From contig NBIV01000190.1 of assembly GCA_003194525.1 (NCBI GenBank), positions 62,001-126,000 on the forward strand: 64,000 bases of DNA. The letters are read 5' to 3'. The notes under the pieces are model-generated. The model did not search any database and was not told the DNA's origin. It was given only the letters and a program-made list of their open reading frames with translations. Of the stretch, positions 15,892 through 45,152 are shown piece after piece. Within the stretch, counting starts at the first letter, position 1; each line of letters opens with the position of its first letter. This DNA is from Gracilariopsis chorda (lineage: Eukaryota > Rhodophyta > Florideophyceae > Gracilariales > Gracilariaceae). Made by a program: the position numbers and the translations under genes.

Positions 15892-16264
15892 TGTGAGAAT
15901 ATATGTGTGCTCACCATCCACATCAGGCAGTCATGCACACAGGAATGGACTAGACAATCTCACCATACCTAAGGATGGTGAGAAGGCTTCTTGTCTTCTC
16001 AATAACCCTAAGGATGGTGATATGGCCCGCCTACAATGTCCCGTGCATGCTACACGCATCCAGATTAGTCCAAGAAGACGAGTAACATTTTTTTCTCTGC
16101 ACTATAAGAGGAGAGAACAGTGCGCAACCCTGGTCTCTGTTCTCGGTACCAACTTCACTTCACATACTTCAACTCTTGTTTAAGCAAAGGAATGTTTTTT
16201 TTTGGTCGTCTCTAGCTTTTGCTACATGTCTCCCCTTTATTTAATGACGTACTATTTCATTCTA
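15892..16264 (+). repeat. 5' LTR of C1
   Basis: It starts TGTGAG and contains the CTCACCATCC / GGATGGTGAG blocks that mark this family's LTRs, plus a TATAAGAGGAGAGAACAG promoter-like segment near 16105 that matches the TATA region of E. The right boundary is set by the shared internal sequence that starts TTCC and contains ATCCGTGGATAAT. Confidence 0.75.
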
Positions 16265-16427
16265 TTCCAGAACTATCCGTGGATAATGGTTGATTTTTAC
16301 CGTTTAGAAGTAAGTGATTCGACACTCAAATAATTAAAAAACTGTGTTCGTACTGATTACGCGTTGTTAACCAATACGTATAAGACGTAATTACTAACCA
16401 CACATTTTTCCAATTTATATTCTTTTA

Positions 16428-17060
16428 GTGTCCAATCAACATATAACTACAATGGCTCGAAAGCAGTCAAGCACTGTTCTTGCCATTTATTCAACCTATT
16501 CTACGGTAACTGTAGAACAAATCGCCACGCGTCGTCAGCATCTTGATTTAATACCAGCGCCATCAAACAATCAGCAAACCAGGAGCATATTGAACTTTTC
16601 AACCTCTTCAGAGGTGTACAGTGAATCAAAACCAGTCTACGAGTCAACCGCATCCAGCAGAAATCTGGCAAGTGTCACTAATCTTGAATCCGAAGAGGTG
16701 CAAGTGCCCTGCCACCGCCCGCAAACACCGTTGCCAGTGCAACGAAACACCAGTGACACTCAGAAGCTCCGCAGGAAATAACCCAACTTTTTAGATGACA
16801 AATCACATTCCAAGAAGAAAAGCACGCATGTGGCACGTGCTAAGCGCTTTTGCACATTGTGTAGAAGTCAGTGCAACAGTGCAAATATTTTGTTCGACCA
16901 CGGTCAGTCAACAACACACCGCAACCACATGCAATACAACCGTACTCCACCATACTGTGCCACCAGTAAACGCTCATTCGAGTCCCATCATCACTTGAGC
17001 CGTCACAAAAACGGCAAAGCACATCACAAGGTGCTTTTTTATCAAAATTCAAATAAATAA
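16428..17060 (+). pseudogene. C1 ORF1: two C2H2 zinc fingers upstream of gag
   Basis: The first part holds a low-complexity Ser/Thr/Gln-rich region that begins NQHITT and ARKQ, matched almost exactly by the copy in E. The second part, starting near 16830, has a basic stretch followed by two zinc fingers of the C-x2-C-x12-H-x5-H type (U1/JAZ-like spacing). It precedes gag by about 140 bases. Such an ORF is not a standard copia part. It may bind element RNA or DNA; that is inference. This copy is degraded. Confidence 0.7.
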
Positions 17061-21659: not shown

Positions 21660-22211
21660 TGTATTACCGTGAGATCTGACCATATGGGCAGTGCAACGCG
21701 CGCTGGAGTAATTGGTGAGTGTGCCACGTGGGTTAGAGTGGCTAACTAACTAGTTTACTAATTTATTTAATTATTTAGATAGATAGTGACACCCCCCTAC
21801 TGTGGTGTGGCACCATGCCACTAGAGCTGACCCCAACGTATCCCAGGTAGCCGAGTGCACCTGAGGTTGAGCCTCGCTCACCCTTAAGGTGGGTGCAGCG
21901 CTCCCTCACCAACCATGGAAAAGGCAAGTACCTCTTGGCTAAGTGTGATACCAACAGGTTTCTACAGTCAACTTCTTGGTTTAGGTAAGACTATTCAGAC
22001 TTTACTAACCCGTGAGCGCCGTACTACCAACACTGCCAATTGGTTACGGTAAAAACACCTGTTTATCTTCGACCCCTATTGGTTTTGTGCTGCCACACCC
22101 ATTCGATTACCAAACGTCAACCCTTCAGGTCGAGCCCTCGTCGTACTCCCGCCAATGGTTCTCCAAACGGGCTACCTCGCTGGTACTTGACATACGATTG
22201 GCTGTACCACA
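21660..22211 (+). repeat. 5' LTR of D
   Basis: This 552-bp repeat starts TGTATTACCG and ends CCACA. Its partner is 30618-32106 minus the inserted 938 bases, which leaves 551 bases, a near-equal length. Confidence 0.85.
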
Positions 22212-22343
22212 TTTTGGGGTCCCGACGAAGAACTGGAATTATACCTATTGTTTTTGGAAAGAAGAACCTAGGAAGAAACTGTATTTTGGACACCGTTTGG
22301 TTTGGTTATCACTAGAAAGCGATTTAGTGAACCATCAGTTTAC

Positions 22344-24588: not shown

Positions 24589-24623
24589 AGGCTGGACCGC
24601 AGGCCAATCTTAACCGGTTCCAT

Positions 24624-27600
24624 TTGGAAGGCCAAGCGGCACCAGCTGGTTTTTGTATGGATTTTTGCCCTGTGGTCACTAAAGACGAATCAGTAGAAGA
24701 CCAATCGGTATCTATTTGTCTTCTGAAGCATAAAAAATACAAGGAAAACATCACCTTTGGATGTTCTGTTAACCATTTGGTTCCGTGTACTGCCTTCTTG
24801 GATGCGGGAGCTGGACCAAACCTGGTTAGTGCGAAGGTTTTATCCCCAATGGTATTGGAAAGGGTACGACCGAGTACCATCACAAACGCTTTGGTGGATA
24901 CAAATAAGCGACCATTAGCGGTCCGTGGAATTGTAGACCTAATGGTAGCCGTGGGAAACCTTAAGGTCCAGGTACGGTTTATATCCATGGAACTACGTTC
25001 ATAAACAACTATTTCTGGGCAAGTATGCCTCGTACCAGAACGATTTTGTTCCATAAGGGTCCAATACTCGCCATTTTAGGTCGTCACAAATCGAGAAAAG
25101 CATCAGATACGAGACAGGAAACCCTGTCGGCGACAGTATCTAATAAGGTTCGATTGGCGAAGTCCATTTGAAGTCTGCCCATGCACCAAGTGGTAGCCAA
25201 AGTGGTATGCGACCGACCGGGTTTGCTAAGACTAGAAAGCCATCATAATGTATTGGAACGCCAGATGACGATGATAGCAAACGGAATCGTGGACAGTATA
25301 CCGAATCAAACCTTTCAGGTATGCTTAAGAAACTTCAGCAACCATATGGTCAAATTATCCAAAATCATCGTTGTTCGAAATGCATCTCCTGCTCCGGGTA
25401 GCATATTTACCTTGACACCATTAAGGTCGTTCAGAGAACTCCACCCTAAGGAGGGGGGGAAATCAACTGCGGATAACTAGAACTAAACTATGCCGGAAAA
25501 GGCCGAAGAAACACTGACACAGGACGGAAATACCAATTCAAAAGAGGAAGTAAGCATAGGGTCCGAAGGGAAACCTTGTAAGGACGCCATCCTCGACCTA
25601 TTGGATCCATTCAGTGCCATTTGGGCAGAACAACTAGGAGTGATCAAGTCCACGCAACACCATATCCACTTGGTTCCTGGAGCCAAGACGATACACCAAC
25701 AATCATACCGGGCAGGTCCGAAAGCCTGACAGGTTGAAATCAAAGAGGAGGAAAGGATGTTCAGGAAAGGGGTTATTGACCGCGCATATGCGGAGTGTGC
25801 CAGCCAAGTGGTATTGGTTCAGAAGAAAGGAGAAGAAAGAATGAGGTTTTGTATCTACTATCGAAAACTAAATGCCATTACTGTCAGGGATTCGTATCCG
25901 ATACCCAGAATGGACGAATTTATCGATTCCGCCGGGGATGCGAAAGTCTGCACCACAATGGATGCCAAATGTGGTTACTGGTAAGTGGATATAGCTGAAG
26001 AGGATAGGGACAAGACTACATCCACCTGCCATGCTGGTCTTTTCCGTTTCTTAAGAATGCCATTTGGTTTAAGGAAGGCGCCCGCTACGTTTCAGAGAGC
26101 TCTGGACATAATCCTATCGAAAATAAGATGGCAGACCGCGCTGATGTATATAGATGACATATTCATCTATTCTCGATCGGTTGAAGAGCACTTTGGGCAC
26201 GTCCGAACGGTGCTCCAGCTCCTGAAAGATGGAGGGGTGACGCTCACGTTACGCAAATGTGTGTTCTTCGACCAAAAGGTGGATTATTTGGGCCATACGA
26301 TCAGCCCAAGACGCATACAGGTAGCCGAGACGAATATCCGAGCGGTTCATGGGTCTACACTCCCACATACCCAAACAGATATCCGCTCCCTCATCGGTTT
26401 TTGTATTGCGTACCGTCGTGTTATCAAGGGGTTTGCTAAGATTGCAGACTCCCTTAATATGAAACTGCAAAAGAGATGCCCAGATTGGTTTGAATCCCTT
26501 GAGGAGAACGAGATTGAGGGTTTTCAGAAACTCAAAGCTGCCCTGATCTCGCCATCAATATTTGCTTTACGCAAGTCTGGCTATCACTACACACTTGATA
26601 CGGACGCGTCTTCCGTTCAGGTAGGATGCTGCCTTATGCAGGACCAAGCAGATGGGAGCAACGCACCCATCGGTTACTGGAGTAGGGCGCTCACCAGAAC
26701 GGAGCAGACCTACACCGTGACGGAGAAGGAATGAGTGGTGGTGAGAAGTATGATGATGCTCCATCCTTACCCATATGGAACGACGTTTACCATTTGGACA
26801 GATCACGATGCCTTATGGTGGATATTGGACCTCGCAGACGCTTACGGATGGCTAGCCAGATGGAGGTTGACACTGTCAGAGTTTAAGTATGAGATACAAT
26901 ACCGCCCAGGGATAAAGCATATCGTGGCCGATGCCATGTCATGCTTGAGTACCAATGAGTTGGAAAAGGAATCAGTGGAGGACGATATTCCGTGTTTCAC
27001 TATCCAATTGGTTAAGAATGGACAGGGAAAGAAAAGTGAAGTAGGTACCTTTTTGGATGAAGAGGAAGAATTTCGTCAGTCTATCGTCGTAGACGATGCA
27101 CCAAGTGGATTTTTTGCAGTGGAGGAGGAGGAAAATTCCCCTATTAGCAAAGAGAAATTCTTGCGCGAGCAAGCAACCAATAGGTATTGCAATTCATTGC
27201 TACACCTTGTTAGGCGGAAGAATACGCAGTTCGATGTGGACCATGAAGGCTATTTATTCGGGCGATCCAAATTAGATGTCCTGCTGTGAAATGTCGTTCC
27301 GGAGTCGCTTCGCCAAAGGGTTCTACACCTGGGTCACCGGCCACGGTTGCCAGGTCACCGGGGAGATACACGAATGTACTACACCCTAAGAGGAAACTTC
27401 TAATGGCCCCTGCTGGCTCACGAGGTCTATATCTATGTGGCTAGATGCGCCTCGTGCGTTAAGAACCATGGTGGTATTCGAAAACATCGTAAGCTTATGA
27501 AGCTATTCCCCGTGGCTGGCCCTTTGGAGTTCATTTCTATTGACCTATAGGGACGACTTCCAGAAACCTCAAAAGGGCATAAGTACGTCATGGTAGTCAC

Positions 27601-28890
27601 TGATCTATTTACGAACTTCACGATGGCAGTCCCCCTCAAGAGCACAACCTCACCGGTTCTAGCGGAAGCATTTATAAACCATTGGGTATATGCTTACGGT
27701 CCTCCACTGTACCTCCTCACCGATAACGGTTCTAACCTAGCTTCGAAGGCATTCGAACCAGTCTGTACCATGTTAGGTTTGAAGCACTATTTCAAGACTG
27801 CGTACCACTCCCAGACCAATGGGCAAGTGGAAAGGGTTAACAAGACCCTTGTGCAACGATTGCGTCATTACGTAGATGAACACCAATCGGAGTGGGCTGA
27901 GTTTGTACAGCCCTTGACGTACGCTTAGAACATACAGGTACATCGGTCAACGGGAACCACTCCCTTCGATTTGGTTTTGTCACGAAACCCTCCGGGTATT
28001 ATTGTCCAAGCTGGTCAGGCGAGCCGCCGTGCCTCTCGAACACAATCGGCCGCTCAGTTGAAGAGGGATACCCTACGAACTTTGAGGGAACCCCTTGCGG
28101 TAGCATCATCAAAGATGACCACAGCCCAGGAGCAGTATAAGAAGTACTTCGACCAGAACGTGCAAAGGGTTACCAAAGTGGAAGTCGGGGACTACGTTTT
28201 CGTGGATGTCCCACAAAATGGTGCTTGGCCAGTCCCGAAGGACGAGAAATGTCACCGGACGGTAGCAGAGGAGATAAACGCCAAGCTACTGCACAAGAGA
28301 ACTAGTCCTTGCGAGGTTATACGAACAGAAGACCACTCGTTAAACATCCTAGAAGGCAATTTAGAGAGCATCGTTTCGGTTGATAGGGTTACGAAAGCCT
28401 CGCAGGCCAACGTACCAACCGAGTTTCTCGGTGGAACAAAGAGCACCATTGCTCCGGCTCCATCAACCCAATTGGAACAATAAGCTACCAGGGACCTGGA
28501 CTCTAGTCCGTCACACTATGGGAGCACAAAACCAGTTAGAAAAAAGAGGGTAACCGCCGACACTACGGTCGCTCCCGCTGCCTCACGGATTGGAAATGGA
28601 ACATCACCACTAGGGAATGCAACACAACCTCTTGGAAATGTACCAACAGAAACCGAAGGGTCATTGACTGCATCATCGATCACGAGTTCACCATATCGGG
28701 AATTTGGTACCGTGTACGGTGGTATGGGTGGATGGCGTTACATGAAACCATGGAAGCGCCCCACCAAATACCCAATAACTTCTTCATATGGTATTGGCGC
28801 AAACGAAATGAAACCCTACCAACTGGATCCCTCAAAGCCCATGCCGTGCCGTGCATGGACGCTAAGGAGGGGGGAGGGGAGAAATTTTTG
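24624..28890 (+). pseudogene. pol region of D: protease, RT, RNase H, integrase
   Basis: In order: retropepsin (CTAFLDAGAGPNLVSAKVL near 24790), RT (FCIYYRKLNAITVRDSYPIP near 25850; active site MYIDDIFIYS near 26145), RNase H (YTLDTDASSVQVGC near 26590), then the integrase core (LLTDNGSNLASKAF near 27712; YHSQTNGQVERVNK near 27805), and a Gly/Asn/Thr-rich tail (28500-28890). This order is Ty3/gypsy. It is a broken fossil. The tail after integrase is longer than usual and has no domain I recognise. Confidence 0.83.
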
Positions 28891-28969
28891 AAGCAATACC
28901 ATGGGGGAAACAACCAAAAAGAAACTAACAACAACTCAGGTAACAACAGACAAATTTACGCATGTTGGC

Positions 28970-30140
28970 ACCCACAAGATTGTGCAAAGGTGACAAAGGC
29001 GGGACTTCTCAGCCGAGTCCCCAGCCCATCGTTCACGGTCCATGAACCAGTTGGTATGCAACCGTTTGTCGACGCAAACCATGTCAAAGTGACACCGCAC
29101 GGCCGAAGGACGGGGACCCATAACGTATAGGAACCAAACCACTCTGTGGAAGAAATATACCTCTCGGGGACTACGGACGAAGGGAGGGTCAGATGGAACC
29201 ATCGGAGGTATAACGTACACGAAGGGTGTATGACGCCGCTTGGCATCAAACGCCGATCGGTGGAGCTTCCGGTTTCGTCTACCAGGTGGTGGAGGAGCCC
29301 TATAGGTGGGAATCCACGCTAGGCGTTCGCAATCCAATCGGCTGTGAGTGACATAGGTATCCACAGAGGGTCGACGGTATTTGTTCGGAGCCTGAAACGA
29401 GTTGGTATTGATGGGCCAATAATTGGAATCGAAGATGCGGGGTCAATGTCCTCCAGAGCGATTCCATAACCACCTTGGCGGAGAAACAGTTAACCAACAG
29501 GAAGAGGACACGGACTCGGTTGTTGACCTATAGGAGAAACAGCTGCCGGATCGTTGTAAGAAGTCCCAGGGATCGGAACTTGGTCTGGATAGTTGCTCTC
29601 AGAAGCCGAAGGGTGTCTGCGGCCGCGGCCTCGACCACTAATTGGAGTCTGCGAACCTCCCCGGGATTGGAAGCGAGTAACCCGTTTGGAAATGCCCTCG
29701 TAGGGACCCATCCAAGGGTGACGGTTCATTACGGACGCCAAACCAATTGGGCCTCTGTGAAATCCGGTTGGCGAGGAGGAAGGAGAACGGCCAGGAGAGT
29801 CGTTCCAAGTGGTTAAATTGGGATCGGGACTTGCTTCCATGACCGCTGAAGAAGCACCATCGCCTGTTCGATGCAACCCATCGGTGAACGGCCTCGAGGC
29901 ACGAAAAAAACGCCGAAGGGTGGACGGCGGTTCCCTGCGCACGGAGTGACCTGAGTGGGTATTTGGCCCATCCCCCTTGGTTTCGATGTCCTGTGTAGGT
30001 GTGAGAGGAGCATGAAGCCGCAGTGGCGCCTCCCCAGAAACCATCTGTGGGTGTGGTAGCGAGGCCTCTTGCTCTACTAAGTCCAAAAAACTTACCACTT
30101 CTTCGGGAGACGCATGACGTGTCGGATCAGGACGAATCAA
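28970..30140 (-). other. Antisense open frames between integrase and 3' LTR of D
   Basis: Read on the - strand, long open stretches cover most of this interval, the best being 29490-30140 (216 codons), rich in Pro, Ser, Arg and Gly with an RGRGRR basic patch. Nothing resembling + strand pol remains here. Antisense genes between integrase and the 3' LTR are known in some plant Ty3/gypsy lineages (Tat/Ogre group), so an extra antisense gene is possible. I recognise no domain and cannot rule out an inverted foreign segment. Confidence 0.35.
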
Positions 30141-30617
30141 TTGGGAGGAAGACCAACGGGCATTCGCGTGGCGCGCCTACGTCGCACCCACAATAGACCA
30201 AATAGTTAATACCGACCGACGGTAGAGGCGTCTAATGCAGGGACCCGAAGCCGTGAAGGGGCAGCGCGAACTCAAGTTGTGAGCCAATCGAGTGGTGAAA
30301 TTGTCGCTGTCGCGGACGCGCCCAAGGGAAGAAGTCAACCAAAAGGAACGAAAAGGACCAACCCCTAAGGAGAGTGTCGCGCTATTCCGGGGAGGCAAGT
30401 GATCAACGGGTATGGGATGGGTTGTTGAGGCCAAGTAGGAACCCTCAGGTCTGGATCTACCGCAAGGAAGATGCACGGCTGACCGTCGAGCCGATTGCCA
30501 AATGGATACGCAGGCTGCGCCACGCGCCGGAGTTGCCACCAAAACTGGTTCACCGACACTGGCCGCTGGGCCACGGTGTACAACCACAATGGCGTGCCTG
30601 TTGGTAGGAAGGGGGTC

Positions 30618-32106
30618 TGCGATACAGTGAGATCTGACCACATGGGCAGTGCAACGCGCGCTGGACCAATTGGTGAGTGTGCCACGTGGGTTAGTTTGGC
30701 TAGTTAGTTATTAGAGTATTTTATTTAATTATTTTGTATAGGTAGTGACACCCCGCTACTGTGGTGTGGGGCCATGCCACTAAGGCTGTAGTGCAAAACC
30801 CGAATGTGGGTATCACACTCAAGGTGTCCGGGGCCTTGCTACGTGTGGAGTCAGACTCTGTGACAAAGCCCTCTGTACACCTCTAACACGGGCTTAACTC
30901 CGTAGGTATTTCGGATTGACCACAGAAGTCGATAAAAAAAGGTGAACCGGGGCCAAAAAGACGCTAAAACCAGAGACTGGTGTGCCACGCGATGCGGCGG
31001 TTTAGAATATAGCCGGTGAAGGGTGCCTTCCGAGGACGGAGAAAACCCACCTGGCTCGTCGTGCGGAGAGCCGAAACAGACCCGACGGAGGGTGCAAATG
31101 AACGGGATGTAGCGAAAAAATTGCCCAATACAAGGGAGATACCAATAAAACACGGGACATAATGTCACACGACAATTATAACACAGAGTATCTGTATGTT
31201 TACCAAGCGGTTGAATTGAGTGAACCGAATGCAGTGACCATCCGTAAGCAGTAGTACACGGCGCAACTACGTCACATCCAAAGCCGGATACCTCAGGTCA
31301 AGCTGAACAGTTATGAATGACCGAAGTCTCGGGTTAACTTTATTTAGTGCTGGCGACGACGACGTCACGCTCACCTAAGTAGTTACACTACCAAATAAGT
31401 TATAATAATTAAATACAATATTGCAAACCTCCTCAGGTCCACACACGTGGCCAAGCCAGTGTTAGGCACCCTGACGGATCAAACCAGGTAAAAAGTAAAA
31501 CTACAGCATGGTGCTGTCGCACACGCGCACACGCGTCCACTCATCCTGCAATCTATTCCAGATTCCTAGCTTCCTATGTAAAACTTCACACAACAAACCA
31601 TCCCATTGGCATCGCCTTGTACGAGTACAACTAATGTATGGTAGAGCCATCACGGAAACCACTTCACACTCCTATGAGTAGCATCATCGCGATTTCCACG
31701 CATTTAGAGTTGCACTACAAAGGCCAGCCTCAACTTATAACAAGTAGCCGAGTGCACCTGAGGTTGAGCCTCGCTCACCCTTACGGTGAGTGCAGTGCTT
31801 CTTCACCAAGCATGGTAAAGGTAAGCACCTCTTGGCTAAGTGTGATAAAAACTGGTTTCTACACTCAACCTCTTGGTCTAGCTAACACTATTCAGGATTT
31901 ACTAACCTGTGTGCGCCTTACTACCAACACTACCAATTGGTTACTGTAAAAATGCCTGGTTATCTTGCACTCCTAGGGCTTTTGTGCTGCCACACCCATT
32001 CGAATACCCAACTTGAACCCTTCAGATCGAGCCCTCGTCACCTTCCACCCTAAGGTTCTCTGACCGGACAACTCCTTTGGTACTTGAAACCAGATTGGTT
32101 GCGGCA
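30618..32106 (+). repeat. 3' LTR of D, interrupted by an insert
   Basis: It starts TGCGATACAG after a purine tract (GGAAGGGGG) and ends GCGGCA. The LTR halves are 30618-30786 and 31720-32106. Confidence 0.83.
30787..31719. mobile_element. 933-bp insert in D's 3' LTR (solo LTR or non-autonomous element)
   Basis: The insert starts TGTAGTGCAA and ends with the inverse (TTGCACTACA), and the 5-bp AAGGC stands on both sides (30782-30786 and 31720-31724). The 5' LTR of D has no such sequence, so the insertion is certain. TG...CA ends plus a 5-bp target duplication fit a solo LTR of another element; the 10-bp terminal inverted repeats would also fit a small DNA transposon. I see no coding sequence inside. 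It has an alternating CA/CG run near 31530. Confidence 0.85.
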
Positions 32107-32612
32107 TTTTAAAACAATACGGACAACTCATTCCACCAGATTGGATTCATCATTGTTCTCGTGTAAAAGTTTCAGAACAGAAATACTCTTCATTTTGCAA
32201 GTCACAAAAAGCGGTGCCCTTCCAGATTCGTCTTAAGAGGAGACCTATACGCATTTACAGATGCATTCGAGGTTACTGATGTTATAAAAAATGAATTAGA
32301 GTTCATAATTGGGAAGACAATTATAGTGACAATGTTGACTGACTCAACGAGTTTATTCGAAGTAATAACCAAAAGCTCGTTCAAATCTGAAAAGAGAGTC
32401 ATGATCAATGTTTCAGCAGATCCGGAAGCCTAATAAAACCATAAAATCTCTGATGTTAGATATGTCATGTCCGATAACAATATTGCCGATTATTGTTCGC
32501 AGAGTAAGAGCTGTAATGCTTTGGAACAACTTCTAGTAACTTCCAAATGCATTTCAGATATTCATATATTAGTTATACGTCATGTTATGAGACAATGGTA
32601 TGCGATACAAAA
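32107..32612 (+). pseudogene. RNase H end of C1 (continues past D)
   Basis: The translated stretch (QIGFIIVLV near 32140; TMLTDSTSLFEVITKSS near 32330) matches the RNase H end of copia element E. It belongs to C1 and lies on the far side of nested element D. Confidence 0.8.
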
Positions 32613-32622
32613 TAAGAGAGAG

Positions 32623-32997
32623 TGTGAAATAATTAGCTCTCTCACCATCCTAATCAGATGTTAACAGAGGCCGAGATGGAATGGAGCATCTCACCATCCT
32701 TGCAGATGGTGAACAAGCGTTTTAAATTCTCATCATCTATGAGGATTGTGGGATGGTTCCTTGCAATGCCGCATTGATGCGAGCATCTTAAAATAGTTGT
32801 AGTGGAAGAGGACAACTAATGTATTTCTCCACCAGTATAAAAGGGAGGGAACAGAGCTTTGCTTTTGCCACTTGTCTGTTTTTCAACTTAAATTTCTATC
32901 ATGAACTTTTTTCTCTACTAAGCAAAAGTACTAAAGGTTTTTCGTTACTAGCCGTTACTACCGCTATATCGCTTTTTCAATAATCGAGTTTATCTAC
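32623..32997 (+). repeat. 3' LTR of C1
   Basis: It starts TGTGAAAT and carries the CTCACCATCC blocks and the TATAAAAGGGAGGGAACAGAG promoter segment of this family (about 32837). The right end is approximate because the two C1 LTRs have diverged strongly. Confidence 0.7.
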
Positions 32998-33405: not shown

Positions 33406-33779
33406 TGTCGTGAAAGAATACGTTTAAAAAAAGGGGCGGCCTGTAGTGGTAGCTAGGGGCGGCCCAAAAAGGATGATTCCTTTGGTTAAAGAGGTAGAGT
33501 TGATGATAATAATGGGTTGGGGAACAGACGAGAGGCAAAGGCCGAGCTCTGTTCCCTCCTTTTATACTCAGAGAGAAAGACGCTAGTCGTCTTTCTCGGT
33601 AGTTAGAGTCCTAACATGCTCGCATGAATGCGGCATTGTAAGCAGACATCACACCATCCTCGGGGATGGTGAGAAGGCAGGACGCTTTCTCACCATCCCC
33701 AAGGATGGTGAGATGGTCCACTCCATCTCCTTCTTCCTCACCGTCTGACAAGGACGGTGAGCGAAGCTTTATCCTCACA
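33406..33779 (-). repeat. 3' LTR of E
   Basis: In element direction it starts TGTGAGGATAAAGC and ends CGACA. It holds three hairpin-forming CACC(A/G)TCC...GGA(T/C)GGTG blocks (33652-33671, 33689-33712, 33737-33761) and a TATAAA box (reverse strand, 33561-33566). Confidence 0.93.
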
Positions 33780-33801
33780 TTCCCTTCTCTTTTCGTATGG
33801 C

Positions 33802-36799
33802 TTACAATTGTCGCATAAAATCACGTATAACTAGTTGATTAATATCTAAAACGCATGTGGAAGTACTTAAAATTTGGTTCATAGCATCACAGTTCTTAAC
33901 TTTGGTAAAACAATCGGTGGGGTTGTTGGCGGAGGTGATATACCCAACATCGGCAATTTCGTGGTTCGAGTAGGCTTCACGAACTGCATAAATGTCGATC
34001 ATTAGTCGCTTTTCAGATGTCGATGAGCTTTTTGTTATTACGTCGAATAAACTTTTTGAGTCGGTAAGCATTGTGATTGGAATTTTCTTCCCAATTATTG
34101 ACTCTAAATCATGTTTGATAACGTAAGCTATATCGAATGCATCTGCAAATGCGTATAGCTCTCCTTCTAAAACGGATCTGGTAACGCGCCGGCTTTTGTG
34201 ACTTGAGAAATGAAGAATATTACAGTTATCGAACTTGTCCACGAGAAGAATAATGAATCCAATCTGGGATGAATTGTCTGAATTGTTGGCAAATGATGAA
34301 TCGGAATATACCTTGAGGCGGAGTGAATTGATATAAAGTTTCACATATTTCAGATTTACATTTTGACTTTGCTGAATATGTTTTACGACTTTGTTGATGT
34401 TCTTCACATCTTCGCTTGAGAAAGATTGTTCCGTAATTTGGGCAGCCATGTTGACAGCACAGCAAATATCTGGTCGCGTGTGGGTCAACCAAGCAATTTT
34501 ATGTCTCAATGAACGGAAATCAGAGAAGGTGCAATCTTTTGGAAGAAATTCGCAATCGTTTGGCATAATGTTCCTGACTTAGTGAAAATCCGTTATCGGT
34601 TTTGCGTACTCTTATGCCTGCGAATAAAGCGGAATCCATTTCTAAGTCCTTTGATTCAAACTTCTGAACGGTGAGCTTTGCCTGTTGCAGGAATTGATCG
34701 GTTCCGCATTGAAGGAGGTCATCTACGTAAACACCGGTTAAGCCAATGAGCTTTGCCTGTTCGTGTTTCATAAACAGTTACAGATCCCCTTTCGTCGGGG
34801 TCATTCCTAGGTCTTCTTTCAGATGAGTTGTTATTGTTCTGTACCAATAGTCTCCAGAGTCTGAGAGTCCAAAAAGAGGGCGGAGAAGTTCCAACAACAT
34901 GTGTGCTGGGAGTTCCAGTTCTTTTGGAGGCTTCAGGTATACTTTACGCATGAGCTTCTGTGCGGATTGCAAGTATGCTTGACGAACATCTGTGTTCCAT
35001 ACTCTATATCCAAGAATAGCGGCGACGGTAACGAGAATTCGGGTTGAATATTGTCTTAGATTAGGCGAATTGTGCACTTGAAAAGCTTTTTCTGGATCTT
35101 TGTGCCCTTGGGCGACAAATCTGGCTTTAAATATCTCTTCATCAGTCTCAGGATTTTTGATGGCGAGCACAAAGCGGCCAGTGAGGATATTGGCGTCTTC
35201 TAACACTTCGTCTTGTCTTATGACTTTCCACGTTCCGCGCGATATTAATCCTGCCAGCTCTTTTCGTTTAGCTTCACTGAATGCTGGTAGGTTCCGACGG
35301 TGATCGGAAGGACCTAAAATTTCAGTGATTTGAACATCATAAAGTTCAAAATCACCAGGAAGTATTGGTTCGAGACAAGTATGAAGATTGTCCATTAGTT
35401 CGTCACGATGAAAAGGTTTGATCTGCGCAATAGAATGTTGGACTGTTTCACCATTGCGATTGATAAAGACTTGTTTGTTATCAATTCTTACAATTCTATA
35501 GGGTCCAGTCCATTTTATTGGCTTCAAATCTTCTCGATAAACTAGAACTTCTTGTCCAACTTTCAAGCTTGTTGATGCGGCATATGGAATGCGAGCGACG
35601 ATTGCATGGCGCAAACGAAGTTCCGAAGTGATGGTTTCCATTTCAGTGCGCGCGATTTGAAGAGCTTTCATTCGCTCCTCATGATTTGGAAGTTCTGTGC
35701 TAAACGGTGGAAAGCGAGGAAGAACTCCAAATACGAGTAGTGAAGGTACAAGTCCTTCGGGATTCATTGTATCGTTCATAGCCTTGACAGCAAGTCGAAG
35801 GGCTAAGGTGATGGGGACATCGGGCTCGCTATATCGAATCTTTTGGTAGATACGACGTAAGGGTCCATGGTACCGTTCACCGGTTCCAAGGGAATTATGA
35901 CTTTCAACGCCTGAGAACTGTAAGGTGATCCCAGCCATGCTTGTCAGTTCTTTCCGTCGAGCGGATGTGAATTGTCTGGCTTTATCCAGTCTCATCTTGT
36001 CTGGATAGCCGGTGTATAATGTGGCCCAACAACCGAGAAATGCGTACCAGATTGCTTCAGTGGTCTGACTCTTGAGGAAAACTGCAGAGCTGAAGTGCGT
36101 TTGTGTGTCGACAACGTGTAGAACTGGCATTTTGTCCAAGAACATAAGATCCAAAGCAATTTCACTGTTGAATATTATTTTGCCTGGAATGGATACTTGG
36201 AAGGACTGTGGCCGGGGTGTAAAACGTTGGCACGGGGCACATGATTTTGAGATATGCTCAATGAGTTTCCTGGTCTCAACCGTGGCATGTTCTGGCTTTG
36301 CTCGGGAGATCAAGTTGAAAAGCTTGTTTGCGCTTGGATGGTAGAATTGCATATGCATTTTTCGGAGTTCACTTTTTGTGTAAAGAATCTCAGAGAAGTC
36401 CCAATCTAAGTACATATGACCGAATTTCCGCGTGATTGGTATCGACCAATTGAACTTCTTGTTGAGTAACATGTTTTCCACGTTGTCAGGTACAAGAGCG
36501 TGTAAGTCCAGGATATCGAGTCCAATAAGAAGAGGTACAGAGGCGTCAACGACGTCAATCTCAAGTGGAAGAAAAGTGTTGCCAGGGATTGGAATGCGTA
36601 CTTGCATGGTTCCACGGCTGAAGTATATGCCATCTCCAAATTTAAAAGCTTTGTTGGAGTGATTCAGCTTAAATGGAATGCCTACAAGCTTACAGTACGC
36701 TTGGGCTTGTTGTTTTCCTACTACAGATTGTTGTGCGCCAGAATCCCGACATGCGCCTTGAAATTCGCGTCGGTTTCTCTCGAATGAGCTTGTCTTCAC
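33802..36799 (-). pseudogene. pol region of E: protease, integrase, RT, RNase H
   Basis: Domains in element order: retropepsin-like CRDSGAQQSVVG (near 36740), integrase zinc site (H...H...C-x2-C, near 36330-36230), integrase core (ALDLMFLDKMP near 36140; GTGERYHGPLRR near 35880), integrase tail (KPIKWTGPYR near 35510), RT (DVRQAYLQSAQKLMRKVYLKP near 34970; active site YVDDLLQCG near 34720) and RNase H (KVYSDSSFANN near 34290; ILSTSTCVLDI near 33855). The order PR-INT-RT-RH is diagnostic of Ty1/copia. It is nearly continuous, with very few breaks. Confidence 0.9.
35135..35582 (-). repeat. Internal inverted repeat arm 1 of E
   Basis: This 448-bp stretch of the integrase-tail/RT-start region recurs in opposite orientation at 37078-37525 with the same length and very high identity. 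See the finding on the inverted repeat. Confidence 0.9.
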
Positions 36800-37077
36800 G
36801 TTGTGAATATCAACAAGGTTCCAACGAGGTGTTCGTGAACTGTATCGTGCTTGCTTTCGTGTACAAAAACGAATGATTCGAGGTGAGCCATTGGAGGACT
36901 TGTCTGGTCCTTTCTTGTTCTGCTGCTTGGGAGGAGCACTGCGGCAGAAATCGTTAGTACTCCCAGTTAAAAATCCTCAAGGCAATTCGAGAGGGAAGGT
37001 TCGCTACTCTGCGTTCCAAAATTAGATGCAAAGAATTGTTCGGAAGGATCAGAGTTTTCGTTGTCTGCATTAACATC

Positions 37078-37525
37078 TGCCGCATCAACAAGCTTGAAAG
37101 TTGGACAAGAAGTTCTAGTTTATCGAGAAGATTTGAAGCCAATAAAATGGACTGGACCCTATAAAATTGTAAGAATTGATAACAAACAAGTCTTTATCAA
37201 TCGCAATGGTGAAACAGTCCAACATTCTATTGCGCAGGTCAAACCTTTTCATCGTGACGAACTAATGGACAACCTTCATACTTGTCTCGAACCAATACTT
37301 CCTGGTGATTTTGAACTTTATGATGTTCAAATCACTGAAGTGTTAGGTCCTTCCGATCACCGTCGGAACCTACCAGCATTCAGTGAAGCTAAACGAAAAG
37401 AGCTGGCAGGATTAATATCGCGCGGAACGTGGAAAGTCATTAGACAAGACGAAGTGTCAGAAGACGCCAATATCCTCACTGGCCGCTTTGTGCTCGCCAT
37501 CAAAAATCCTGAGACTGATGAAGAG
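37078..37525 (+). repeat. Internal inverted repeat arm 2 of E
   Basis: Inverted copy of 35135-35582 lying between gag and the protease part of E, about 1.5 kb away. It reads as integrase-tail protein on the + strand, opposite to the rest of E. Confidence 0.9.
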
Positions 37526-37649
37526 CTATCCTGTCTCGGCTGTCTCCAAAGTTCGTTTGTGGCTCATTGGTAGCGTTGTGAGCACGCCATGGCTGGCGTT
37601 GGCGATTTTGCTCATTCACGCGTTTCGGAGGTGAGAGCTCCCGTTGTTG

Positions 37650-38066
37650 CTAAACCTCAGTTTCTTCTTTGACGTCTGCAAATCTCTGTGGTTGCTGTCG
37701 GGTAGGCGTAGCAGGTGCCGGCGTTTGCTCGAATAAATCTATAGCAGTGAAAGCATCTTCTACATGAGACTCCTCAAAAATTGTTTTGGCAATTCTTTTT
37801 AAGAGGTGACCGCTTTCATGTTCTGCGAGACTAATTACACGATCTTCTAAGAACTTTGCAAACTTTCGCATAAGCAATCCATTACTTAAAATTGTAAAAG
37901 TGAGTAGCTTATCTCGACGGTATTCAGTTCTCAGAAGTTCGATTACTTGAGCAGGCTCTGCTTGGGTATTGTTTTCCTGAAAATTCTTAATAAATTCGAT
38001 AAATTGTCGTTGTTGCTGATTTGCATACCTAACATTGGTAGTAAAATTTGCGTTAAGTGGCGGCAT
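37650..38066 (-). pseudogene. gag region of E
   Basis: A 138-codon frame starts MPPLNANFTTNVRYANQQQR and is rich in charged helices (LLRTEYRRDKLLTFTILSNG), then Pro/Thr/Gln. Its start matches C1's gag at 17197. Position between ORF1 and pol fits copia gag. No zinc knuckle is seen in this stretch. Confidence 0.65.
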
Positions 38067-38199
38067 GATGAACTAAACAAATTACTACAGAGTTTTGTAT
38101 GCTAATATAATAAAGTACTGTGTTTAACTAAGCTTTACTCGTACACAATTAGCCTATTGGTATTGGTTACTAATCGTAGAGTAATACGCAAAAGCAAAA

Positions 38200-38841
38200 C
38201 TATTTATTTATGTAAATGTTGATTGTAGAGCACTTTGAAGTGTGCTTTGCCGTTTTTTTGTGGCGGTTCAAATGATGATGCGACTCAAATGAGCGCTTAC
38301 AGGTAGCACAGTAAGGCGGAGTACGCTTACACTGCACGCGGTTGCGGTGTGTTTTAGACTGACAGTGGTCAAAAAAGGTTTTTGCACTGTTGCACTGAAT
38401 TTTGCACAATGTGCAGAAGCGTTTGGCACGAGCCGCACGCGTGGTCTTCTTCTTTGGTTGCAATTGGTCAGCCAAACACTTGGCCTTTTTCCTGCGGAGC
38501 TTCTGTATGCCACTGGTGCTCGGCTACACTGGCACTTGTGTGTGTTGGCGGCGGCGAGGCACTGGTATTTCTTCGGCTTCAAGGTCAAAGACACTTGGCG
38601 GTTTGCGGCTGGATGTAGTTGAGCGGTGGCCTGGTTCTAATTCACTGTCCACTTCTGAAGGAGTCAGATGGTCCAATATGTTCGGTCGTTGCTGATTGGT
38701 TGGTGGCGCTGGTAGTACAGCAAGGTGGTGACGATGCGGGGAGGCTGGGTGCTCTACGGTTACTGTAGGATAGATTGAATTATAAATAAAAACAGTGCCT
38801 GGCTGTTTACGAGCCACTGTAGTTATATGCTGATTGGGCAC
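38200..38841 (-). pseudogene. E ORF1: two C2H2 zinc fingers upstream of gag
   Basis: The N-terminal half begins MPNQHITTVARKQ and is Pro/Ser/Thr/His-rich. The C-terminal half has a basic patch (KKKTTRAARAKRF) and then two zinc fingers with identical spacing C-x2-C-x12-H-x5-H, separated by about 15 residues (about 38415-38240). This spacing is that of U1/matrin/JAZ-type fingers, which bind RNA or double-stranded RNA in other proteins. C1 carries the same ORF in the same place. Standard copia elements have no such gene. Role unknown. Confidence 0.75.
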
Positions 38842-39005
38842 TAAAAGAATATAATTTAGAAAAAATGTGTGGTTAGTAATTACGTCTTATACGTATTGGT
38901 TAACAACGCGTAATCAGTACCAACAGAATTTTTCAATTCTTTAGATGTCAAATGACTTACTTGGAAACGGTAAAAATTGACGATTATCCACGGATAATTC
39001 CGGAA

Positions 39006-39379
39006 TTTCGTGAAATAATACGTTTAAAAAAAGGGGCGGCCTGTAGTGGTAGCTAGTGGCGGCCCAAAAAGGATGATTCCTTTGGTTAAAGAGGTAGAGT
39101 TGATGATAATAATGGGTTGGGGAACAGACGAGAGGCAAAGGCCGAGCTCTGTTCCCTCCTTTTATACTCAGAGAGAAAGACGCTAGTCGTCTTTCTCGGT
39201 AGTTAGAGTCCTAACATGCTCGCATGAATGCGGCATTGTAAGCAGACATCACACCATCCTCGGGGATGGTGAGAAGGCAGGACGCTTTCTCACCATCCCC
39301 AAGGATGGTGAGATGGTCCACTCCATCTCCTTCTTCCTCACCGTCTGACAAGGACGGTGAGCGAAGCTTTATCCTCACA
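39006..39379 (-). repeat. 5' LTR of E
   Basis: Direct partner of 33406-33779. In element direction it precedes the leader and ORF1. The hairpin blocks recur at 39252-39361. Confidence 0.93.
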
Positions 39380-40803: not shown

Positions 40804-41025
40804 GGGAAAGAGAGAGGCATGCCCGGGCAGTCCGAAGCACGGGCAACCGCTCTCCACCTGTAGGCGCCGCGAGACGCCGGCGGCGAGCGGTACATTCGGG
40901 ACACGTGGTGCCATATAACACTATAGGCTTACACCATCATACGCATCGTGTATGCCAGCGGTCTGGCCAACCTCGCTATACATGAATTAAATTGTTTCAT
41001 CAGCATAAACACGTCTACACATGAC
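40804..41025 (-). repeat. Direct repeat, 3' copy of the DIRS-like element
   Basis: It matches 44931-45152 over 222 bp with two differences. It lies about 70 bases past the end of the recombinase ORF. Confidence 0.92.
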
Positions 41026-41093
41026 AAAACATCCAATCACACCCAACGCCTCGTTGGAACACCACGGAGGGCTGCAGGCCCTGCGAAGGCACG

Positions 41094-42230
41094 TCAAAGT
41101 GACGGGCTGGAAACGGGAACGGCAGGGCCCCATGATGCATTAGCCGGACCGAATAACCAGAACGAGGCGGCAGTCACTCTGATCGTGCGGTCAAAATATG
41201 TCGAAGCCATCTCGTCACTTCGCGGGCCCCATCCGAATCGAGACAGCCGCACTTCCAGCGGTATACCCAATAAAACCTGCTCCGTATGAGCCCCAATGCG
41301 CAGCGAATGTGAAGTGAACTTTCCACCGGGCGGCGCCGTGATCTGCAAGATCTCAAGGCAGTTTTGCAGCGAACGAGTCAACCCACCGCCAGCGTTGGGG
41401 TTGTACTCCTGTTTGCTGTCAAGTCCAAAGAAACGGGAGTGGTTTCCTCGCGCATGCTGCCAACGAAGCCAAAGATCTACTGGGGACGGTAGGTTGTTCC
41501 ATCGCTCGTAGCGCACTAACGCAGCCTGACTAGCCTGCTTGCCCTTCACCAGGGACAGTCGTGCGGTCATCGCATTTCCATCCAGGGAAACATTCGGAGG
41601 TAGTATAGAAAGCACAGAGCTCTCCCGTAAACCGTTGAGGCAGTAGGCAAAGACGCATGATGCAGCATCCCGAAGAGTAGCAGGAGATGAAGTCGACATC
41701 CCCAACCCCCATATGCGTTGAATAATAGTGGCAGGGATCCCACAGCGGACTTCAGTCTTCGGAAAGTTTGCTTCTTCCCATCGCGAATACCCGCGGATTA
41801 GGGCTGCTACCAGCGGGAAGGATGGGATAGCATATCCGAGAGTGGTCTGGTGCATCTGCCGCGCAGCACTGAGGTACTGCGGAATCGAAGCGCTCGACAC
41901 CGACCGCCGCCCCGCTTCGCGCTCCAGCGTGAGCCATCCGATGAACGCGACGAAGTGTGCCTCTGTGACAGGTAGAATGGGACGACCCTCGGCATCGCAG
42001 AATGAGACCCACGTCTTCCACTGTGAGTTCCTGGTCGACGTGGTGCGCTCGCTCCAGGCGAAGTCGCTGAGCAGGGATGCTGACCTCGCCAAACAGCTGG
42101 ACGGGGGCAACGTTCCAATGCGGCGCACTGCTTGGTCTGCCAGGGACATCCGCCGCGCAGCCCGAGGACCTACTCGAGGTTCACTTCGAGGAGCAGCAGG
42201 CCCCACTTCGGGTTGATGTGTCGCCAAGCC
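41094..42230 (-). CDS. Tyrosine recombinase of the DIRS-like element
   Basis: The C-terminal part of a long open frame (which stays open to 44186) is a phage-integrase-type tyrosine recombinase. The catalytic set is visible: Arg in NGLRESSVLSI, Lys in LVKGKQ, H-x-x-R in SHSLRIGAHT, and the nucleophile Tyr in STYFDRTI. An N-terminal SAM-like DNA-binding half (FVAFIGWLTLEREAGRRSV, QYLSAARQMHQ) precedes it. It would insert the circular element DNA by recombination. The start is unknown; in DIRS elements this frame overlaps the RT frame, and it overlaps here near 42170-42230 or further. Confidence 0.82.
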   Translation of the reverse strand, partial: GLATHQPEVGPAAPRSEPRVGPRAARRMSLADQAVRRIGTLPPSSCLARSASLLSDFAWSERTTSTRNSQWKTWVSFCDAEGRPILPVTEAHFVAFIGWLTLEREAGRRSVSSASIPQYLSAARQMHQTTLGYAIPSFPLVAALIRGYSRWEEANFPKTEVRCGIPATIIQRIWGLGMSTSSPATLRDAASCVFAYCLNGLRESSVLSILPPNVSLDGNAMTARLSLVKGKQASQAALVRYERWNNLPSPVDLWLRWQHARGNHSRFFGLDSKQEYNPNAGGGLTRSLQNCLEILQITAPPGGKFTSHSLRIGAHTEQVLLGIPLEVRLSRFGWGPRSDEMASTYFDRTIRVTAASFWLFGPANASWGPAVPVSSPSL

Positions 42231-44401
42231 GTCCACCCCGCCTCCGGGGGCACTTCTAGCCGCTCCGATCTCGTCGCGAGGTGCAACGCGGCGGCATGCC
42301 AAGGCTGTCGAGGCCAGTCCGGAATCAGCAGGACTGCCGGCGCCTTCGTCAATCGGAGCTTGCGCACAGTTGCGTTGATGAGGTCGACCGGTTGGCAGAG
42401 CAGGCGAACGTCCCCCGGCGACCATAGAGACGCTAGCTCGGCGAAGGCTCGGCGTCGGAGTTGCACTGGATGCTCCCCGACTGGGCGATAAGGGAGTGAG
42501 TCCACTGGGGCTCGCATTCCATCCCGAACGGAATGCCGCAGCTCCAGCTGGATCTGCAAGTCGCCGCGAGGGAAGCGTCGCGACAAGGCGTCGGCAAACT
42601 TGTTGGCGACTGACGGTACCCAATCCGTCCGAAGATGCAGGCCCAAGTGATCGAGGACGACCTTGAGCTTCCTCAGCTCGCGCATCATAGGCCGGCTGGC
42701 CGAGACAAACGAGTTTGTGATGTGCACGACGGCCTGGTTGTCGACATGTAAAAGCAAGTCCGCGTGTCCCTGTTGCACGACCTCCGTGCCCAGAGAGCCG
42801 GTGAGCAAAAGTCGAATGGCCTTCAGCTCGCGGTAGCTGATGCTTTCGGCTCGGTCTTTCCAGCTCCAAATACCCTGCGCCTTCCAATGGCCGAGGATAC
42901 CTCGGCTCAGGTCTTCCGCGTTGAGCGTACCACCCCACCCAACCTCTGCTGCGTCCGTGTGCATCGCTGCGGTAGGCGTGGTCGGAACCATCGGACGCCC
43001 TGCCAGTTCGGCTCGGGCCAAGCTCTGCCACTTCAACAAGTCTCGAATACTCTGATGGCTGAGCCGGTAGCGCCCACGTACATCCCTCCGCCTCGTCGAA
43101 CCAATGTCCCAATAGAGGGCACGGGTGTAGAAGCGGGCCCATGGCATTGCAAGCGCCAATGACACGCAGACGCCACAGAAGTGTGACACAGCCTTCTTCG
43201 AAACCCACCGCCTGCCCAGTCGCACCTCTTTCAGCAGGCGTCTTGCGAGATCTTGGACCTTCGAAACCTTGCGCGGGGCGATGAAGAAGCGCATCTGCTC
43301 TGTGTCGATGCGAACGCCCAGATGCTCGACCACTCTTGCCCCAGACCACTCGCCTTTCGTCGGGTGACGTTTTAAACCGAGTCGGTCTAAAAGAGCTTGG
43401 ATTCGAACCGTCGCTCGTCGGCAGTGGTTTGGAGTCGACGTTTCTCCGTGCGGCGAAGGTGCGAATAGGAAATCGTCGAGGTACCCTAGCACACGATATC
43501 CGTAGCTGCGGACTTCCTGCACAAATGGGGCCATGAGCCGCGTAAACCACAAGGGAGAGCGGCCCCAACCGAAAGGAAGAGCCAAGCACTGATAGTAGCG
43601 AGCCTCCCACCTGAAGATGAACCAGTCTCTCATAGCGGGGTGAAGGCGGAAGTGCCGGTAGCCCTTCTCGATGTCCATTGATACCAGGTGGTCTCCCCGT
43701 TGTAAATCCATTGCAAATTCCGCCAATGACTCCATCTTCACCGAGCCCTTTCGCCATCGCTTCGACTGCAGTGATAGGTTCACTACAAAACGACCCTTCC
43801 GTCCATCGGATCCGTCTTGCCATACCACGAAGCTTGAAGAGATAATTGAACCATTCTTCTTTGCCCGTGCTGCGTGCTCGGGAGATACATCTTGGTAAAT
43901 GCCGGAGCGACACCCTTGTGTGAGGTCGACTGCCGCAAAGGCTTTTTCTTCCTCCGACTGCGGGATATCTCCCAGCTCCATTCCTTCCCCAGGAATAAAT
44001 GGAACTGAAGGGTGATGGAGAATCCCGAAACGGATCGCCCGGAGCAAGAACTCTGAGCAACCCAGCTGGCGCCATCCCTCGACGTGACATTGTGTCGCAC
44101 GCCAGAGAGGGCGTCCAGTCCTTATGGCGACTAATTGTTGCCGGCAGCCGCACCTTTTCCAGAACGCTTTGTTGCGTTGCTGGCACTCATGGTGGCGACT
44201 GCCTTCATCAACTAGGTTGACAGATGCGTTTCCACCTTGTTCATGGACTCCTGGAGATCGTCCGCGGCGGCAACCTCGTTGCGCCTTTCCAAGGTCGGCA
44301 TCACGAGCTTGGCATATGCAGGGTCCTTTTCGGCCATCTTGTAGAATTCTGCACGAAGCCTGACAACTCGGAGTCCATAGCGAATGGAGACACCGGCCCA
44401 T
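42170..44401 (-). CDS. Reverse transcriptase-RNase H of the DIRS-like element
   Basis: This 743-codon frame carries RT motifs (GRFVVNLSLQSKRW, HLVSMDIEKGYRHFRLHP, ALPFGWGRSPLWFTRLM, and the active site GYLDDFLFAPS near 43480) followed by RNase H (MHTDAAEVGWGGTL near 42960; YRELKAIRLLL; HVDNQAVVHITNS near 42740; NKFADALSRRFPRGD near 42590). This is the DIRS type of RT-RH. The first 60-130 codons overlap the gag-like frame and may not be translated, so the start is uncertain. The whole RT part also overlaps a second open frame joined to the recombinase. Confidence 0.85.
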   Translation of the reverse strand: MGRCLHSLWTPSCQASCRILQDGRKGPCICQARDADLGKAQRGCRRGRSPGVHEQGGNASVNLVDEGSRHHECQQRNKAFWKRCGCRQQLVAIRTGRPLWRATQCHVEGWRQLGCSEFLLRAIRFGILHHPSVPFIPGEGMELGDIPQSEEEKAFAAVDLTQGCRSGIYQDVSPEHAARAKKNGSIISSSFVVWQDGSDGRKGRFVVNLSLQSKRWRKGSVKMESLAEFAMDLQRGDHLVSMDIEKGYRHFRLHPAMRDWFIFRWEARYYQCLALPFGWGRSPLWFTRLMAPFVQEVRSYGYRVLGYLDDFLFAPSPHGETSTPNHCRRATVRIQALLDRLGLKRHPTKGEWSGARVVEHLGVRIDTEQMRFFIAPRKVSKVQDLARRLLKEVRLGRRWVSKKAVSHFCGVCVSLALAMPWARFYTRALYWDIGSTRRRDVRGRYRLSHQSIRDLLKWQSLARAELAGRPMVPTTPTAAMHTDAAEVGWGGTLNAEDLSRGILGHWKAQGIWSWKDRAESISYRELKAIRLLLTGSLGTEVVQQGHADLLLHVDNQAVVHITNSFVSASRPMMRELRKLKVVLDHLGLHLRTDWVPSVANKFADALSRRFPRGDLQIQLELRHSVRDGMRAPVDSLPYRPVGEHPVQLRRRAFAELASLWSPGDVRLLCQPVDLINATVRKLRLTKAPAVLLIPDWPRQPWHAAALHLATRSERLEVPPEAGWTAWRHINPKWGLLLLEVNLE

Positions 44402-44820
44402 ACATCGTATTGCAGAGCCTCAGGATCGTTTTTCTCTTCGATTGCCTCAGCCCTCAGATCCAAGGCTGCTTCATGAAACGCCATCCAATAGCCCGAGGCG
44501 TTAAAATAGTTCGCCTCATACTCGCTTACAGCACGAAGGCTGGAGTGTTTCTCCATCCCCCGACGGAGGGGCCACTCTTGATGCTCGAAGAAGCCGCCTG
44601 TCATGGCTCCCACACCTGGGCCTTGTTCAAACGGATACGGTGTGATCCCAAAGTCCTTGTAATCGCGGCAGCGCCGGGCGATAAGCCCGTAGGATCGCAG
44701 CAAAGTCGGATCTATGTCTGCCTCTGCCAGCGTCTTGCCCTGGCTAACGGCCCGAGCCTTGGTGAGCATCTCGGCAACGAGCTTGCGGCTGTCACCGAAA
44801 GTGGGAGTAGAGGCAGCCAT
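44212..44820 (-). CDS. gag-like protein of the DIRS-like element
   Basis: From ATG at 44820 (MAASTPTFGDSRKLVAEML) runs a 202-codon, helix-rich, charged protein that ends just where the RT-RH domain sequence begins. It is the first gene of the element, the place of gag in DIRS elements. I recognise no zinc knuckle. The frame is open further upstream to 45048 into the direct repeat, but the MAAS start is better placed. Function as a capsid-like protein is inferred from position only. Confidence 0.55.
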   Translation of the reverse strand: MAASTPTFGDSRKLVAEMLTKARAVSQGKTLAEADIDPTLLRSYGLIARRCRDYKDFGITPYPFEQGPGVGAMTGGFFEHQEWPLRRGMEKHSSLRAVSEYEANYFNASGYWMAFHEAALDLRAEAIEEKNDPEALQYDVWAGVSIRYGLRVVRLRAEFYKMAEKDPAYAKLVMPTLERRNEVAAADDLQESMNKVETHLST

Positions 44821-44930
44821 GGGGTGTGTTCTTTGTGTTCTTAGTAGCGATACTCTGCAAACAGTATTTGATCTGTGTTCTTTTGACCGTATGAAATGTG
44901 CCTGCCACCAGAAGTTCCGGGGACTCTCTT

Positions 44931-45152
44931 GGGAAAGAGAGAGGCATGCCCGGGCAGTCCGAAGCACGGGCAACCGCTCTCCACCTGTAGGCGCCGCGAG
45001 ACGCCGGCGGCGAGCGGTACATTCGGGACACGTGGTGCCATATAACACTATGGGCTTACACCATCATACGCATCGTGTATGCCAGCGGTCTGGCCAACCT
45101 CGCTATACATGAATTAAATTGTTTCATCAGCATAAACAGGTCTACACATGAC
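44931..45152 (-). repeat. Direct repeat, 5' copy of the DIRS-like element
   Basis: Partner of 40804-41025. It lies about 110 bases upstream of the gag-like start and probably holds the promoter. Confidence 0.92.

Follow-up and report, generated by a model that had tools for sequence, protein, structure and literature searches.

The way in which LTR retrotransposons use a single RNA both as message and as genome is still an open problem; the few elements examined for it include BARE and Cer1. In Cer1 of C. elegans, the accessory protein CERV is made from a spliced mRNA and is required for export of the genomic RNA, and Gag-Pol is made from the unspliced RNA; the cited passages also describe a Cys loop in CERV, possibly an RNA-binding zinc finger, with invariant cysteines required for genomic RNA export (PMC10309623). 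BARE1, a copia element of barley, carries a 104-nt intron just past the coding part of gag that favors Gag (PMC3735527). In rice tungro bacilliform virus (RTBV), translation of ORF I begins at AUU, and scanning by ribosomes covers about 900 nt (PMC5902531). The 5′aORFs of Tekay, a Ty3/gypsy chromovirus, have predicted nuclear localization and disordered stretches (PMC11728184). Splicing, leaky scanning and ORFs ahead of gag are each known from other systems, and the combination of a splice-made AUG with C2H2 fingers in copia was not found in the literature searched. The open-access titles, abstract openings and cited passages covered gave no example of a C2H2 ORF preceding gag in a copia element, and none of a retrotransposon AUG made by splicing, which leaves absence from print unproven.

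The 64-kb stretch of Gracilariopsis chorda DNA analyzed here (the window) holds two copies of one copia-type family, E on the minus strand and its diverged relative C1 on the plus strand. Both carry an extra ORF with two zinc fingers (ORF1) ahead of gag, as a sequence-only reading of the same DNA had claimed. Its further statement, that standard Ty1/copia elements contain gag-pol and nothing else, would go too far if applied to LTR elements generally, since the Tekay 5′aORFs are likewise conserved extra ORFs ahead of gag-pol; Tekay differs in belonging to the gypsy lineage, and the cited passages describe neither C2H2 fingers nor a splice-made AUG for the 5′aORF (PMC11728184). As modeled here, E and C1 resemble Cer1 as LTR elements with an accessory protein from a spliced mRNA (a prediction in this case) and Gag-Pol from the unspliced RNA. 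The account cited gives CERV a large size, three structured domains and, possibly, a C4-type finger, whereas ORF1 lies ahead of gag, encodes C2H2 fingers and is known from sequence alone (PMC10309623). The model shares with BARE1 a partly spliced RNA and separate RNA pools for translation and packaging, but BARE1 has one ORF, and the cited passages describe no extra ORF ahead of gag (PMC3735527). RTBV and the badnaviruses have upstream ORFs without AUGs, as ORF1 is in E, and their ribosomes scan through these to the main ORF; RTBV P4 is made from spliced RNA. Unlike E and C1 they are pararetroviruses, and the parts cited mention no zinc-finger ORF upstream of the one for the coat protein (PMC5902531). 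The GalEa/PyRE10G-type copia elements, a clade found in red algae and animals, share the Ty1/copia domain order with E and C1, but the cited passages describe only gag and pol ORFs for them (PMC3587641).

The main parts of E are as follows.
Positions 33406 to 39379, minus strand: element E, a copia-type LTR retrotransposon (LTR pair, target-site repeat and pol domains)
Positions 39006 to 39379, minus strand: 5′ LTR of E, with a TATA box, TATAAAAG, at 39166-39159
Positions 37650 to 38066, minus strand: N-terminal gag ORF of E, 138 aa, the remaining gag being missing or replaced
Positions 34778 to 36799, minus strand: pol ORF of E (PR-INT-RT; Pfam)

The two LTRs of E (39006-39379 and 33406-33779) shared 99.2% identity over 374 nt, both start with TGTGAGG, and the 5-bp target-site repeat ACTCT is intact on both sides. 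The 3′ LTR ends in CACGACA and the 5′ LTR in CACGAAA, with one base changed; E shows the TG...CA ends and 5-bp repeat of Ty1/copia elements. It also has their PR-INT-RT order: RVT_2 scored above the Pfam cut-off at 535-662 of pol, and matches below the cut-off to Asp_protease (16-102), Integrase_H2C2 (145-195) and rve (223-297) followed the copia order. A purine-rich stretch precedes the 3′ LTR (by eye), and an inverted copy of part of the element's own pol lies at 37074-37529 (98% identity to 35131-35586). E is a young insertion that has been rearranged and is probably non-autonomous; because most of gag is lost and the inverted pol copy is present, its recent insertion probably occurred in trans. 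The LTR also contains an inverted repeat (39247-39315 and 33647-33715; 84% over 69 nt), with CTCACCATCC...GGATGGTGAG units in U3 that are partly retained in C1.

Two parts of the second copy, C1, are as follows.
Positions 15892 to 16259, plus strand: 5′ LTR of C1, starting with TGTGAG at 15892, 3′ limit approximate (BLASTN to the E LTR)
Positions 17197 to 18820, plus strand: gag remnant of C1, starting at ATG 17197, 3′ limit approximate (translation by eye)

Its internal part runs to 21658, and the remainder was found at 32105-32907, beyond an apparently nested gypsy-type element (about 21665-32101) whose LTR-like repeats (21665-22204 and 30623-32101, plus strand) are 83 to 86% alike, the 3′ one being interrupted by an insert of about 940 nt. 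The layout common to E and C1 is LTR, leader, ORF1 with fingers, a spacer of about 135 nt, gag and pol. The gag of C1 includes a CCHC-type knuckle, CWNCGKLEHVIAEY, near 18724-18765 with the last Cys changed to Tyr (by eye), a part that E does not have. It also holds an insert of about 270 nt relative to E (17420-17693, plus strand) with TTCTAGAA-like short inverted repeats (by eye). The LTRs of C1 (15892-16259 and 32623-32907, plus strand) shared just 57% identity over 280 positions, compared with 82% for pol and 66 to 71% for LTRs between C1 and E; the 3′ part of C1 may come from another subfamily via recombination.

Two further features were observed in the window. The region at 40804-45152 contains a reverse transcriptase ORF (RVT_1) overlapped by a long second ORF and is flanked by 222-nt direct repeats that are 99% alike. 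The second ORF had no Pfam match, and we take its C terminus to be tyrosine-recombinase-like; the whole looks like a DIRS/Ngaro-type element. A long ORF at 62206-63906 (minus strand) encodes a MULE transposase domain, with a SWIM finger just below its Pfam cut-off.

In both copies ORF1 spans about 210 codons, following the 5′ LTR and preceding gag, which has a start of its own.
Positions 38203 to 38840, minus strand: ORF1 of E past the predicted splice junction (A/TG...), with a TAG at 38526-38524
Positions 38257 to 38433, minus strand: part of E ORF1 that encodes both fingers, 59 codons up to and including His-Lys of finger 2 (Pfam, dN/dS)
Positions 16429 to 17060, plus strand: ORF1 of C1 past the predicted junction (A/TG TCC AAT...), with a TAA at 16779-16781 and fingers at 16833-17009

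Neither copy is intact, each being interrupted by its own stop. Fusion of ORF1 to gag was ruled out, as ORF1 of E stops ahead of gag and is in a different frame. Two fingers of the form C-x2-C-x12-H-x5-H close ORF1 in each copy, with all eight zinc ligands retained in E and seven of the eight in C1, where Ser replaces the second Cys in finger 2 (by eye). The 77-aa finger segment of E scored 34.7 bits against Pfam zf-met (cut-off, 21.2) and 28.9 bits against zf-C2H2_jaz (cut-off, 22.6), and that of C1 passed no Pfam cut-off, its sole match being the KIN17 finger at 13.8 bits (cut-off, 27.7). The earlier assignment to a U1/JAZ-type finger holds for the spacing in both copies and for the family model in E only. 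A sequence search of the PDB returned eight entries, each of them a finger protein of C2H2 or similar type, the best being PRDM9 (E value, 0.00096), with KIN17 at 0.18. Among NCBIfam models, the fingers had one match below the cut-off (DksA_like; E value, 0.6) and the gag ORF and pol had none. A structure model of the finger segment was uninformative (mean pLDDT, 47). Just past the "RHK" of finger 2 the copies are separated by a 2-nt indel, and a His falls at the correct spacing in both frames (by eye), which makes the ancestral frame ambiguous at that point. Ahead of the fingers both copies encode a Lys/Arg-rich basic stretch, which we take to be nuclear-localization-like.

The sequence-only reading had taken the persistence of the fingers as a hint of selection on the protein. 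The constraint figures come from one pair, E versus C1, both with a broken ORF1; of 192 codon pairs two containing stops were excluded, and the codons at a 3-nt gap and the tail past "RHK" lay outside the comparison. Over the 59 finger codons, 18.0 differences were synonymous and 13.0 non-synonymous (dS, 0.78; dN, 0.10), giving a dN/dS of 0.13 (bootstrap, 0.05 to 0.30), and the differences were distributed 3/7/21 over codon positions 1/2/3 (binomial P = 9e−5). The N-terminal 124 codons gave 0.87 (0.53 to 1.47), where constraint on the protein was not clear, and the other two frames of ORF1 gave 1.05 and 1.00. For comparison, the ratio was 0.37 in pol (0.29 to 0.46; 660 codons). In the gag start it was 1.22 (0.46 to 3.4; 68 codons), again without clear constraint on the protein. 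Within ORF1, clear protein-level selection between the E and C1 lineages is confined to the finger domain, and the hint did not extend to the N-terminal half.

The ORF described earlier as starting with NQHITT does exist in both copies, broken in each, but its start is not ATG in the DNA: ahead of NQHITT the DNA shows GTG in E and C1, and there is no ATG shared by the two for ORF1. In C1 the closest ATG in frame is at 16452 (context ACAATGG); E has GTG there, and the site is downstream of the NQHITT that both copies share. Upstream of ORF1, signals of a predicted intron lie at matching places; neither this intron nor the AUG-free leader described below figured in the sequence-only reading.
Positions 38841 to 38960, minus strand: predicted leader intron of E, 120 nt, with a branch-point-like TACTAAC at 38878-38872 and the acceptor TTCTTTTAG at 38849-38841
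Positions 38955 to 38960, minus strand: predicted 5′ splice site of E, GTAAGT, after an exon ending in ...CCAA (same site in C1 at 16310-16315)
Positions 16310 to 16428, plus strand: predicted leader intron of C1, 119 nt, with TACTAAC at 16392-16398 and TTCTTTTAG at 16420-16428

Removal of the predicted intron would join ...CCAA (E) or ...AGAA (C1) to TG... and create an AUG in the frame of ORF1, with the N termini MPNQHITT in E and MSNQHITT in C1 (MPNQHITTVARKQ and MSNQHITTMARKQ, respectively). The conserved N terminus read from this junction AUG begins upstream of the ATG at 16452. Each copy has a single GTAAGT and a single TACTAAC in the region from leader to gag. The composite pattern A/GTAAGT, 30 to 300 nt, TACTAAC, 10 to 40 nt, YAG/TG occurred on both strands of the 64 kb only at 16309 (plus) and 38961 (minus), a looser version likewise gave one site per strand, and none was found in 6 Mb (300 sequences of 20 kb) of first-order Markov sequence modeled on both leaders; as the pattern was selected after the sites were known, these counts express rarity and are not an independent test. 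The exon base before a 5′ splice site GTAAGT is usually G, and here it is A, which counts against the splicing model. The predicted intron did not fold clearly more stably than 200 shuffles (z, −1.4 and −0.9; 17 and 33 shuffles at least as stable), and a strong leader hairpin was dropped as a candidate. A second acceptor directly ahead of gag was weak (by eye) and was also dropped, and self-priming from R-U5 was rejected, as no 8-mer complementary to the 29 nt past the LTR was present. No Rfam family reached its gathering score anywhere in the window, and ARAGORN (bacterial code) found no tRNA.

Of the regions compared between E and C1, the predicted intron was the most alike (89.9% identity over 119 positions). 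It contains the longest identical run, 55 nt including TACTAAC, against a maximum of 26 nt elsewhere (in pol). Identity was 0.88 in the stretch from LTR to donor site (34 positions), 0.74 in ORF1 ahead of the fingers (404), 0.825 in the fingers (177), 0.63 in the spacer between ORF1 and gag (132), 0.81 in the gag start (207), 0.82 in pol (2,009) and 0.67 in the LTR (359).

The leader of E is free of ATG up to gag.
Positions 38066 to 39217, minus strand: stretch of E that contains no ATG, 1,151 nt, running from LTR U3 up to the gag start

The gap extends from 39217, in U3 and upstream of the TATA box (39166), as far as the gag ATG (38066); neither strand of the window has a longer one, the next being 648 nt (405-1053). 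From 39003 to 38067 (937 nt) no ATG was present, compared with a mean of 11.8 and a minimum of 2 in 2,000 dinucleotide shuffles (0/2,000 at zero). ATG was the most depleted of the 64 trinucleotides in the leader (0 versus 12.2 expected), and neighboring regions had seven in 213 nt (U3) and seven in 414 nt (gag start). The matching 937 nt of C1 contain five ATGs, a number that low in 9/2,000 shuffles; between its start of transcription, assumed from the TATA box as in E, and gag there are eight versus 12.3 expected, which ranks ATG only fifth among the trinucleotides by depletion. Of the five, those at 16828 and 16929 at the least arose where E has CG in place of CA (by eye), as decay predicts. 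Because the C1 leader has AUGs, the evidence for an AUG-free leader comes from E alone. An AUG-free leader also occurs in the window without ORF1: the 648-nt stretch leads up to the gag ATG of a gypsy element (plus strand) whose end repeats lie at 421-657 and 5550-5787.

Taken on its own, the reading of ORF1 as a spliced accessory gene is likely. That it is what remains of an accessory gene carried by a copia-type LTR element, and was also expressed by splicing, is, jointly, somewhat better than an even bet. The same modest preference applies to the predicted expression logic, in which unspliced RNA would provide Gag-Pol and the genome and spliced RNA the finger protein. Scanning ribosomes would cross the AUG-free leader of the unspliced RNA and arrive at the gag AUG, this RNA being the message for Gag-Pol and also the genome. 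In the spliced RNA, loss of the leader intron of about 120 nt would join ...A to TG... as the AUG of ORF1, and the two-finger protein would be made instead.

ORF1 could also be translated from unspliced RNA via a weak or non-AUG start, with gag reached by leaky scanning in the manner of RTBV and the splice-like signals coincidental or serving something else. ORF1 of E has no internal AUG, like ORFs I and II of RTBV in the account cited (PMC5902531). The stretch up to the main start holds no ATG in E, against the five of C1, and C1 offers the in-frame ATG at 16452 in the context ACAATGG. E has GTG in place of that ATG, which comes only after conserved coding sequence, and leaky scanning leaves unexplained both the set of GTAAGT, TACTAAC and TTCTTTTAG in the two copies and the placement of an AUG by splicing exactly at the start of ORF1; we consider it unlikely.

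If ORF1 was a spliced accessory gene, its protein may well have been a nuclear RNA-binding regulator of the unspliced RNA. The protein, with its basic Lys/Arg stretch, would enter the nucleus and bind RNA, and the target would be the conserved intron, carried only by unspliced RNA. The protein could then promote export, protection from splicing or packaging of that RNA in a Rev-like or CERV-like loop. E was copied through RNA recently, because its LTRs are 99.2% alike and its target-site repeat is intact, and it nevertheless kept the intron; therefore, unspliced RNA is what is reverse-transcribed. With the intron conserved as well, it would be the natural site for a mark of unspliced RNA, and the finger protein its natural reader. 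Granted a spliced accessory gene, action of the ORF1 protein on unspliced element RNA comes near an even chance but falls short of it. The complete proposal is a copia element with a retrovirus-like loop, in which a finger protein, with a start codon that only splicing creates, binds the intron retained in unspliced RNA and turns an early phase (finger protein) into a late one (Gag-Pol and genome). It is put forward tentatively, because its standing is the product of the likely splicing step and the less certain action on unspliced RNA.

A spliced accessory gene might instead encode a protein that suppresses host RNA silencing or directs integration, roles that the sequence-only reading had also raised, and has no part in handling genomic RNA. 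Pfam describes zf-C2H2_jaz as a double-stranded-RNA-binding finger, and RTBV P4, likewise from spliced RNA, may interfere with silencing according to the cited passage (PMC5902531). Such roles leave the strong conservation of the intron unaccounted for, and we regard them as improbable; they share the expression logic of the preferred explanation, so that the confidences overlap and do not sum to one.

Close relatives were sought in viral, prokaryote, plasmid and phage collections, where, eukaryote genomes lying outside these collections, absence means little. None was found in viral contigs for the finger peptide, the finger alignment, E pol or the pol alignment, or in prokaryote genome contigs for the finger alignment and E pol; an exact 33-nt leader pattern had no match in viral contigs, and tblastn with E pol found no relative in plasmids and phages. 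That no homologue in these collections showed persistence would suit a captured host zinc-finger fragment with no element function, its AUG-free leader serving only gag and conserved as a packaging or dimerization signal, as would the breaks in both ORF1 copies, the dN/dS of 0.87 in the N-terminal half and the AUG-free leader of the gypsy element, but the dN/dS of 0.13 and strong third-position bias of the fingers during divergence of the lineages, the same position in both copies and the splice junction in the frame of ORF1 make this the most doubtful of the alternatives.

If the preferred reading of ORF1 as an accessory gene expressed by splicing is true, the copia lineage would have a very simple switch, in which splicing supplies the start codon to a leader that otherwise lacks AUGs. 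Action of the finger protein on the conserved intron would mean that Rev-like control has emerged in one more group of retroelements.
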